A stretch of DNA of 64,000 nt from Myxococcus fulvus. GTDB taxonomy: Bacteria > Myxococcota > Myxococcia > Myxococcales > Myxococcaceae. A model generated the notes under the pieces. The model did no database searches, was not told where the DNA came from, and saw nothing but the letters and a program-made list of their open reading frames with translations. Made by a program: the position numbers and the translations under genes. How positions within the stretch are numbered: position 1 is the stretch's first letter; every line of letters begins with the position of its first letter. This document shows, piece after piece, positions 42,380-60,497 of the stretch. The stretch is from the NCBI RefSeq assembly GCF_900111765.1, contig NZ_FOIB01000001.1:310001-374000 (forward strand), written 5' to 3'.

Positions 42380-42452
42380 TTCCGGAAGCAGGGCTCGAAC
42401 CTGCGTCGAGCCGGAGTCTGAGCCGGCCGTTCTACCGCTGAACTATTCCGGA
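42380..42452 (-). tRNA. tRNA (Gln-type body) with an 8-nt anticodon loop
   Basis: On the minus strand acceptor TCCGGAA pairs with TTCCGGA, A73 (complement of 42380), with D and T arms almost identical to the tRNA at 42517-42588. The anticodon stem GCCGG/CCGGC encloses eight bases, CTCAGACT (42415-42422), instead of seven. Read from U33 the anticodon would be CAG (Leu); aligned to its neighbour (CTCTGAC) it has one extra base. Expanded loops are known in frameshift-suppressor tRNAs. It may also be a damaged copy. Confidence 0.6.
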
Positions 42453-42516
42453 GCAATTCGAGACGGGCCTTGCTCCTGCACCGGCGCAAGGCCCGTCCTG
42501 CTTCAATCGAGAGACA

Positions 42517-42588
42517 TTCCGGAAGCAGGGCTCGAACCTGCGTCCAACCGGGTCAGAGCCGGCCGTTCTACCACTGAACTATTCCGGA
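42517..42588 (-). tRNA. tRNA-Gln(CTG)
   Basis: Minus-strand tRNA with acceptor TCCGGAA/TTCCGGA, A73, D arm GTTCAGTGGTAGAAC and anticodon stem GCCGG/CCGGT around CTCTGAC. Anticodon CTG (complement of 42554-42556) reads CAG glutamine codons. U33 present, all stems intact. It lies upstream of the near-identical tRNA at 42380-42452 in the direction of transcription. Confidence 0.8.
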
Positions 42589-42621: not shown

Positions 42622-44043
42622 TCAATGCCGAGGCTCCTCCACTTCAACCGCTGTCACACCCACCACCGCGCCCTGCTCATCTCGTCGCACCACGAACGGG
42701 CCCACATCATCGTCGAGCCCCTTGCCCGGCTTGCCCGAGAACCACCCCGCCTTCTTGATCGCGGAGGCGAGCTGGGGATGCGAGACGACCACTCCGTGCA
42801 CCAGCTCCGGCGTGGGTGAGAACGGCACTGCTCGCCGCTGACCCGGATGCGACGTCCAGCCCTTCAGCTCCGGGTCCACACCGTGCTTCCGACAGACCCG
42901 CTCGACGTAGGAACGCGTGCACCTCTGACGGCCGGTGAGCACCTCCCACGGGGGCGGCAGCTCGGACCAGATGAGCGTGTCGGGCTCGAGGTCGCCTCCC
43001 GACCTCGCGTGCCAACGCACGACATCCGAGGCCATGAGCCGCATGACCTTGCCCAGACACATCATGTCCACGGCGTCATGCATCCCCAAGGCGTGCGCGA
43101 GCCCCAGCCAGCCCTGCCGGGCCGAGTTCCATGCTCCCGCCGTCGCGTTCCAGGTGCTCGAGTCATCACCCCGCTGAACGACCATCGTCGAGCGGTCGAA
43201 GAGACTCCGCTCCCACGTGTGTCGCAACAGGTCCGCGATGTCGTGGAGCATCGCGAGCCAGGTGACGAAGAGCCCCATCTTGTCCACGTCGGACAGATGC
43301 CTGACGACGTCCACATCGGGCAGCACATGCGCGATGGCGCGCCAGCCCTCCGTGCACGGGTTCTGCTTGAAGCGCGTGAGCAACATGTCCGCGATTTCGT
43401 CGAGCGCGCGGTCCTGGCCGGTGTTGGTGAAGACACTCCGACGGTTCCGTCGCGCGGTGAAATAGGCGATGAAGCACGCCGCATCCCGTGACTTCGAGAA
43501 GTCCTCCCAGGACAGCCGCGTCGCCAGGCTCGACTTCGCGATGCGCGTGGCCTCGTACTTGCGCTGCTCGAGCCGGTACGTCTCCAGCTTCTCCTCGAAG
43601 CGCGCCAGGAAGCGGAAGAGCTTGTTGTAGCGCCGACGCGAAATCTCCAGCCCCGCGCTCAGGCGCGCCTCCTTGTTGAGGCGGTCCCCCGCGAAGTCAC
43701 TCTTCTGGAACTGCTTGCGAATCTCCGCGCCCAACCGGGCGACGAAGGCGCTCACCTTCTCCACATCGGCGGCGTCCTCGTCCGAGAGCACCGGTGCATG
43801 CGTGAACAGCTCAACCGCCTTGCGCACCTTGCGCATGGGGGGAGCAGGGCGCTCGAAGTCCTGAGCCATGGAGGTGAGCTGATGCACGCCGCGCTTCAGC
43901 GAGCCGCTGGCCGCCTTCATCAACAGGTGCGTCTGCGACCGCGTCAGCTCCGGGCCCAGCTCGGTGAGGACGAGCTCCGCGACATCCTCCGGGCGCATGC
44001 GCCGCTGGAGGGACTCGAAGAGGGCGCGCAGGGTCGAAGACAT
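42622..44043 (-). CDS. Hypothetical protein, 473 aa
   Basis: A soluble protein from MSSTLRALFESL (start 44043). The N-terminal 200 residues are Arg/Lys/Glu-rich and helical (LEISRRRYNKLFRFLARFEEKLETYRLEQRKYEATR). The rest has Trp-rich segments (WRAIAHVLPDVDVVRHLSDVDKMGLFVTWLAMLHDIADLL, PPPWEVLTGRQRCTRSYVERVC). HDIAD recalls an HD pair but the other HD-domain residues are not evident. No known family. It lies 33 bases upstream of the tRNA pair in the same direction, so they may share a transcript. Confidence 0.75.
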   Translation of the reverse strand: MSSTLRALFESLQRRMRPEDVAELVLTELGPELTRSQTHLLMKAASGSLKRGVHQLTSMAQDFERPAPPMRKVRKAVELFTHAPVLSDEDAADVEKVSAFVARLGAEIRKQFQKSDFAGDRLNKEARLSAGLEISRRRYNKLFRFLARFEEKLETYRLEQRKYEATRIAKSSLATRLSWEDFSKSRDAACFIAYFTARRNRRSVFTNTGQDRALDEIADMLLTRFKQNPCTEGWRAIAHVLPDVDVVRHLSDVDKMGLFVTWLAMLHDIADLLRHTWERSLFDRSTMVVQRGDDSSTWNATAGAWNSARQGWLGLAHALGMHDAVDMMCLGKVMRLMASDVVRWHARSGGDLEPDTLIWSELPPPWEVLTGRQRCTRSYVERVCRKHGVDPELKGWTSHPGQRRAVPFSPTPELVHGVVVSHPQLASAIKKAGWFSGKPGKGLDDDVGPFVVRRDEQGAVVGVTAVEVEEPRH

Positions 44044-60093: not shown

Positions 60094-60425
60094 CGCGCAC
60101 CTCCTTTCCCCGGCAAGGGGAGTGTTCGAGACCGGGACGCGAGGTGGCGCGAGAGGCGCGCGTCCCGGGGACTGCGAGAAAAGTGAAGGCCCCAGCCTTC
60201 GCGGGTGGAGAGCGCCGACTGCGTGCCCGGACCCCATCGACGCATCCCGCGCTCGCGGGCCGGACCGGGCGCGGACGACGACAGACATTCCGCTGACGGC
60301 GCGGAAGGGGACTGTCGTCCTGGCGGACGGCGTGGCTTCGCGGTGGGGGAAGGTTGGGAGGGGTGGGCCAGCGCTTCTACCGGCTCGGGATGGAGCCTTC
60401 TGGCGGAACCGATTTTTCAGATCGG

Positions 60426-60497
60426 GTCAGAACGAAGGATTCGAACCTTCTCCTCAAGATCCAATGTCTTGTGCTCTACCAGGTGAGCTAGTTCTGA
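60426..60497 (-). tRNA. tRNA-Gln(TTG)-like, A33, C73
   Basis: Minus-strand fold: acceptor TCAGAAC/GTTCTGA, D arm GCTCACCTGGTAGAGC, anticodon stem CAAGA/TCTTG and T arm GAAGG/CCTTC. The loop is CATTGGA, so anticodon TTG would read CAA (Gln). Position 33 is A and the discriminator is C, both odd for a Gln tRNA. The D arm and length are regular. Isotype is uncertain; it could be a divergent or inactive tRNA. Confidence 0.5.

Follow-up and report, generated by a model that had tools for sequence, protein, structure and literature searches.

Why should a bacterial chromosome carry, next to an ordinary-looking transfer RNA (tRNA), a near-identical twin with one nucleotide too many in its anticodon loop? 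The question is raised by a locus in a 64,000-nucleotide stretch of Myxococcus fulvus (assembly GCF_900111765.1, contig NZ_FOIB01000001.1, positions 310,001 to 374,000 of the forward strand), referred to here as the window, in which both tRNA genes lie behind a long open reading frame (ORF), ORF473. The two tRNAs and the upstream ORF almost certainly constitute one mobile two-part module, composed of a tRNA whose anticodon loop is often mis-sized and a protein of unrecognised fold. An earlier note, made from the DNA letters of the window, had described the tRNAs as a Gln-type tandem, and had taken the enlarged loop, together with a supposedly compensating stem change, as a sign of selection and possibly of four-base reading. 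The features concerned are the following:

42380..42452, minus strand: tRNA with an eight-nucleotide (8-nt) anticodon loop, CTCAGACT, at 42415-42422 (ARAGORN, Rfam RF00005 and the family alignment A8).
42453..42516, minus strand: spacer between the tRNAs, with a 13-bp hairpin (fold and alignment).
42517..42588, minus strand: twin tRNA with the 7-nt loop CTCTGAC at 42552-42558 and the Gln-like anticodon CUG (ARAGORN, Rfam).
42622..44043, minus strand: ORF473, the 473-amino-acid partner protein, with an ATG start conserved in two other genomes of the genus (G004 and G007).

The 8-nt loop does sit, as the note had it, within a perfect GCCGG/CCGGC stem, and the cloverleaf around it is intact according to both ARAGORN, which calls the gene tRNA-??? 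with a four-base anticodon, CAGA, and Rfam, which scores it at 55.6 bits, versus 68.7 bits for the twin (gathering score 29). The pair is also nearly identical (93%), and the 8-nt copy has discriminator A73 and no encoded CCA. The compensating stem change (GTT/CTC), on the other hand, dissolves on comparison, since the single tRNA of G004, with a 7-nt loop, has the identical CCGGC stem and CTC; from this tRNA the 8-nt copy departs in the loop alone, where one T is replaced by A and one T is inserted. Selection on the enlarged loop thus loses the argument from the stem but keeps another, namely that the copy belongs to a tRNA family in which many 6-, 8- and 9-nt loops are kept beside one protein family. 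Because it lies in an intact cloverleaf of a family with this very property, the 8-nt loop is not due to chance. A one-base assembly or sequencing error is hardly credible: the genome is a draft of 42 contigs, but a substitution accompanies the insertion, and eight nucleotides is the commonest loop size of the family.

The label "Gln-type" fits the anticodon of the twin, which ARAGORN calls tRNA-Gln(CTG), and nothing else in the pair, as both tRNAs have A73 and C2-G71, whereas the canonical Gln(CTG) of the genome has G73. This canonical gene and a Gln(TTG) are among the 76 Rfam tRNA matches of the genome, both of them elsewhere, and neither window tRNA is the canonical tRNA-Gln. Since the genome already has these two Gln genes, the idea that the pair supplements codon usage is unlikely to be right.

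The first indication that the tRNAs belong with ORF473 comes from the genus, for which 27 genomes, one per species, were compared. This tRNA type occurs in three of them, namely the window genome, with two copies, and G004 and G007, with one copy each and a 7-nt loop; ORF473 is present in the same three, and in all of them the tRNA stands directly behind the ORF. In the window 33 nt separate the end of the ORF from the twin tRNA, and the unit is flanked by the AIM24 and CTERM genes, which in 24 of the 27 genomes share one stretch that lacks both ORF and tRNA. Around CTERM in G007, neither the unit nor AIM24 is present, and the unit is instead located 3.4 Mb from the best CTERM match, beside other genes, so that the tRNA and the ORF occupy two different loci within the genus. 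That the same three genomes carry both, adjacent to each other and at different loci, argues that ORF and tRNA move together. Across 195 genomes of the phylum, the protein is again restricted to these three; a protein match in G035 was taken as chance, because neither the tRNA nor a matching ORF was seen there. The spacer between the two window tRNAs (42453-42516) has no counterpart in the alignment with G004 and G007, each with one tRNA; on the minus strand it folds into a hairpin of -33.5 kcal/mol (z -4.53 versus 200 shuffles) lacking a T run, and each arm is present once in the window.

Beyond the genus, the protein has relatives, at 33-57% identity, in two Chryseobacterium records, on 16 IMG/VR contigs, which are computed viral calls, and on plasmids, five from Streptomyces, one from Hymenobacter and one from Miltoncostaea. 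None was found in 50,697 phage records (INPHARED). A phage origin suggested by DNA similarity was rejected: 25 INPHARED records matched at 60-90% identity, none over more than 80% of the query, and most of the matches listed fall under ordinary tRNA genes. A scan for the tRNA in a collection of genome contigs, from which near genomes may be left out, returned no match. The protein also occurs in the family of G195 (Chryseobacterium indologenes), where 36 of 320 genomes match it: in 30 the match spans at least 300 model positions, the ORF being long and intact in 29 of these and broken in G337, and in six it is partial or weak.

When these loci were inspected for tRNAs, the association recurred. 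Of the 26 protein loci outside the Chryseobacterium family, 25 carry this tRNA type, and in 22 at least one loop is not 7 nt long, the sizes being 8 nt (16 copies), 9 nt (11), 7 nt (11, including an unlinked one) and 6 nt (1); these loci are partly non-independent, given that the five Streptomyces plasmids are near-copies and the tRNAs of L116 and L119 are identical, and L103 and L119, on one contig, were counted once. Within the Chryseobacterium family, all 30 loci have one or two such tRNAs, and 51 of the 54 copies called by ARAGORN have 8-nt loops, the other three having 7-nt loops, while in one host of that family (G309) all 30 tRNAs called across 1.2 Mb outside the module have 7-nt loops. 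The arrangement varies: the tRNA overlaps the end of the ORF by 10 nt in the phage loci L102, L112 and L113, and the tRNAs lie upstream of the ORF in L115, L121, L122 and L124-L126. Several viral loci also carry arrays of ordinary 7-nt tRNAs, so that nearness to some tRNA is unremarkable there and it is the type of tRNA that is remarkable.

The converse search starts from the tRNA. A pattern that recognised the tRNA at all 30 known Chryseobacterium-family loci matched 31 of the 320 genomes, namely the 30 with protein loci plus G335, which has a protein fragment, and not one of the 284 genomes in which the protein has no match; it was not found in G213, G242, G304, G365 and G507, whose protein matches are partial or weak only. 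Among the viral contigs, a general pattern, which recovers seven of the 16 protein-bearing contigs, matched seven, all of which bear the protein. The loop of the window, which the earlier note had proposed to look for in relatives, was seen in none: CTCAGACT is absent from the other genus genomes, and a pattern with this loop matched no viral contig. Some copies of the module are damaged, the protein being broken or fragmentary in G337, G335, G213, G242 and G304, with the tRNA pattern still recognisable in G337 and G335. At 4324-4393 of L100 (Chryseobacterium indologenes J31), a tRNA looks like the 5' half of the slot A gene fused to the 3' half of the slot B gene, and its acceptor stem now pairs poorly. 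Upstream of the ORF on the Miltoncostaea plasmid (L110, around 2310-2400), a sequence that is tRNA-like by eye has an apparent 14-nt loop, CTCTTTCCGACATT, with no call by ARAGORN, Rfam or the family scanner.

What is kept constant in this tRNA, and what is free to change, was read from alignment A8, a set of 29 chosen copies without L110 and L117 (the latter called by the scanner only). Pairing is kept in 99.3% of the 609 pair cells of A8, and 145 cells are changed on both sides, a count that related rows inflate; each value was reached by none of 500 shuffles, and the excess of pairing and compensatory changes indicates that the cloverleaf is under selection. The last two stem bases and the first three loop bases, GGCTC, are invariant, as is the opposite CCG. 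Independently of the scanner, the odd loops called by ARAGORN start with CTC after GG in 17 of 17 and 51 of 51 cases. The acceptor stem and N73 (A, C, G or T) are unconserved in the family, although slots A and B of the Chryseobacterium family have near-constant acceptors. The loop 3' of CTC varies in both sequence and length, its 3' half being hypervariable. These variations matter for a further explanation, according to which the 8-nt copy of the window is a functionless, decayed duplicate, an idea compatible with any mechanism for the family. It is supported by the fact that the extra base is unique to the window genome among the 27 of the genus, G004 and G007 having the 7-nt form; all stems are intact, however, and both changes fall in the most variable part of the family, which leaves decay an unlikely explanation.

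The loops of the Chryseobacterium family have been exchanged repeatedly. On the ORF tree of 29 loci, from which L159 was omitted for its broken ORF, at least five loop changes are required in slot A and at least eight in slot B, with switches among CTCTTTAA, CTCTTCAC, CTCTTCAT, CTCTTGGA, CTCTTCTT and the 7-nt loops CTCTGGA and CTCTCTT. Comparison with host G309, whose Lys loop is CTTTTAA and whose Glu loops are TTTTCAT (four copies) and CTTTCGA (two), reveals that CTCTTTAA equals the host Lys loop plus one C, and that CTCTTCAT equals the Glu loop TTTTCAT plus one C, with C for T at position 32; CTCTTGGA presumably resembles a Gln loop. That CTCTTTAA minus its C gives CTTTTAA would suit a repair scheme, in which ORF473 takes out the extra base or bases to yield a normal 7-nt tRNA with U34. 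Such trimming is quite improbable, since it would spoil the 7-nt and 6-nt members and would need to remove two bases from the 9-nt loops.

The same likeness to host loops bears on decoding. It is possible, though doubtful, that the 8-nt tRNAs read quadruplets of the form NNAG (AAAG, GAAG, CAAG, UCAG and CCAG, with UCUG for the window) and cause +1 shifts at chosen or stress-induced sites; that ORF473 would help, for example by modifying the loop or by holding the tRNA back, is equally speculative. The earlier note had proposed CTG-N as the target, which the anticodon does not fit, because CAGA, if four bases are read, would pair with UCUG instead. Eight is the commonest loop size, bases 37-38 in the Chryseobacterium family track the anticodon (TTAA, TCAC or TCAT, TGGA) as they do in host Lys and Glu tRNAs, and, according to DeBenedictis 2022 (PMC9094753), an engineered Escherichia coli tRNA-Gln for CAAG works. 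Near the window, in 12 picked ORFs, UCUG occurs in frame once in 7,327 codons, and being almost absent it could be read there without harm. The 6-nt and 9-nt loops of other family members nevertheless fit four-base decoding badly, CTCTTCTT (8 of 54 copies) matches no ordinary pair of bases 37-38, and there is no conserved discriminator or acceptor identity. Moreover, the two module tRNAs of G309 have the presumed quadruplets AAAG and GAAG, which in 553 mechanically listed ORFs of at least 250 amino acids (273,540 codons) occur in frame at 20.0 and 15.8 per 1000 codons, or about 1 in 28, a frequency at which efficient, constitutive four-base reading would ruin translation in this host.

The partner protein offers few clues of its own. 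Pairwise comparisons among the three genus genomes give ratios of nonsynonymous to synonymous substitution rates of 0.226, 0.268 and 0.261, and ORF473 is under purifying selection. Neither it nor its relatives reach the curated cut-off of any family in Pfam, NCBIfam or PHROGs, nor does ORF473 itself in PADLOC; below threshold, the lowest E-values against Pfam were 0.011 and 0.015, for one member each, in a search of 17 members. A sequence search against the PDB gave no match below E 0.5. AlphaFold2 run with 17 sequences predicts a mainly helical fold (predicted local distance difference test, pLDDT, 86.3; predicted template modelling score 0.84), a single-sequence prediction with pLDDT 43 not being used, and the protein alignment holds 48 invariant columns. 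With the predicted model as query, none of 172 Foldseek matches in the PDB had E <= 0.001 (best 0.29), and the best VIA Z of 6.5 is within the range that common arrangements give; two strong fold matches were obtained in BFVD, to Edafosvirus A0A3G4ZSE3 (3.8e-13) and Yasminevirus A0A5K0U9D9 (5.4e-13), both of them giant viruses. As far as the predicted model goes, the partner protein family is without a recognised fold.

For a patchy two-part unit found on plasmids, viral contigs and chromosomes, and in L102, L112 and L113 joined by the overlap of gene and tRNA already described, a toxin-antitoxin-like function comes to mind, with ORF473 as a ribonuclease or other toxin and the tRNA as antidote or, conversely, with a frameshifting toxin tRNA sequestered by ORF473. 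This seems improbable, as no toxin family matches the protein and G335 retains its tRNAs with a mere protein fragment, from which it follows that the tRNA alone is not lethal there.

The explanation we prefer for the whole, while giving it somewhat less than an even chance, is a module built around a mis-looped tRNA mimic, and for its mechanism we tentatively favour a mimic that serves as decoy, bait or guard. The data establish that protein and tRNA are linked, whichever of the two is searched for first, that they move together, that the cloverleaf and the protein are under selection and that the loop is hypervariable; binding of the tRNA by the protein is inferred. The protein would recognise the tRNA through GGCUC/CCG in the anticodon arm and through the elbow; the tRNA would mimic ordinary tRNAs while its altered loop bars it from normal triplet decoding, and the pair could then act as decoy, bait or guard wherever conflicts attack the anticodon loops of tRNAs. 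Such a role would explain why the unit is spread over viral contigs, plasmids and chromosomes, and why the body stays constant when the 3' half of the loop changes fast. The 8-nt copy would then be an additional tRNA of the module in the window genome, and so far specific to that genome.

Several observations weigh against this reading. In A8, whose related rows favour apparent covariation, 5 of 500 shuffles also yielded as many as 14 doubly changed pairs, and the constancy of GGCTC is partly an artefact of selection because the scanner required this motif. The loop CTCAGACT of the window does not conform to the pattern of one added C, and the 1.2 Mb of G309 contained no Gln tRNA with which CTCTTGGA could be compared. 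The 7-nt members CTCATAA, CTCGGGA and CTCCTAA resemble ordinary decoding loops, and since G004, G007 and the viral locus L124 have 7-nt loops only, an odd loop is not required. Some 7-nt entries may themselves be ordinary tRNAs, given that the scanner searched whole stretches and that its first version took ordinary Met (CTCATAA) and one ordinary Gln tRNA on control loci; the entry at position 37 of L118, CTCATAA, is a Met tRNA distant from the ORF. The scanner found 29 of the 30 Chryseobacterium-family loci, missing L130, which the pattern finds. Finally, the window protein matched no PADLOC family at E <= 1.

A more far-reaching idea, which we hold to be rather doubtful, is that of a dedicated natural system for non-triplet anticodon loops, in which a protein of new fold would work with a hypervariable-loop tRNA retargeted on a constant body. 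If this were true, four-base recoding or loop-directed targeting would be traded as a cassette by viruses, plasmids and bacteria. What the family offers is a natural setting in which to test four-base decoding, or else a tRNA-based conflict module of a new kind, and the module would account for some of the "tRNA-???" calls that annotation leaves undetermined.

Other unusual tRNAs were noticed along the way. The window contains dense arrays of divergent, second-set tRNAs at 128-844 and 2501-2758, several with loops lacking U33 (GCGCCAC, GAGCCAC, CCGTCTA and TCGACAT) and one, with a Leu anticodon, having a short variable arm; a bigger array of like kind is located at G000:C1:1792636-1795705. A gene at 60424-60497 (minus strand), called Gln(TTG) and located away from the genome's other gene of this type, also has a loop without U33, CATTGGA. 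A divergent tRNA cluster, partly of second copies, at around 6737-8997 of L246 (G309:C1:1126737-1128997) recalls the arrays of the window genome, and a module-bearing viral contig (L113, 4982-5055) carries a tRNA with anticodon CTA, called Pyl.

How does this module compare with known systems? A conserved pair of a 6-, 8- or 9-nt-loop tRNA and a protein was not found among the titles and abstract beginnings of the top-ranked open-licence PMC articles, a set with hardly any preprints and few subscription journals. The frameshift suppressor SufB2 (PMC7803779) and engineered quadruplet tRNAs (PMC9094753) are likewise normal tRNAs but for one base added to the anticodon loop. The likeness lies in the enlarged 8-nt loop on an intact body and extends to the window copy and many members, not to those with 6-, 7- or 9-nt loops; SufB2 and the engineered tRNAs are suppressor mutants or designs, whereas the family described here is natural and widespread, with loops of 6-9 nt beside one protein family. 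A natural 8-nt anticodon loop is known from yeast mitochondrial tRNA-Thr1 (PMC7609411, PMC4267643), and probable enlarged loops have been reported from mitochondria (PMC5009743). Yeast tRNA-Thr1 is mitochondrial and reads CUN codons as Thr, with no linked protein described in the accessible portions of those papers, while the window family has a partner protein. Putative quadruplet anticodons (UAUG, UGGG, AUAA, GCUA and GUUA) have also been listed for chloroplast genomes (PMC9840617). These share with our tRNAs that four-base anticodons were predicted from genomes, but they are organellar, have other anticodons and come with no mention of a partner protein in the text available. To our knowledge, no partner protein accompanies the phage tRNAs that evade nucleases either. 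The latter, which escape anticodon nucleases through loop mutations (PMC10264068), resemble the present family in being mobile tRNAs with changed loops in a setting of conflict; 8-nt or expanded loops, loop length, insertion and quadruplets go unmentioned in the main text of PMC10264068. A dedicated pair of synthetase and tRNA would have a class I or II synthetase fold in the partner protein, whose predicted model gave no significant PDB match and whose sequence gave no family match near a cut-off. The gene of Ro60/Rsr adjoins that of the tRNA-like Yrl RNA, and there too a protein gene stands beside the gene of a tRNA-like RNA. The TROVE domain, however, is not among the nine Pfam families matched at E <= 1 by any of the 17 ORF473-family members searched, most matches weaker than about 0.1 being lost to the HMMER filters, and here the RNA is a full tRNA.
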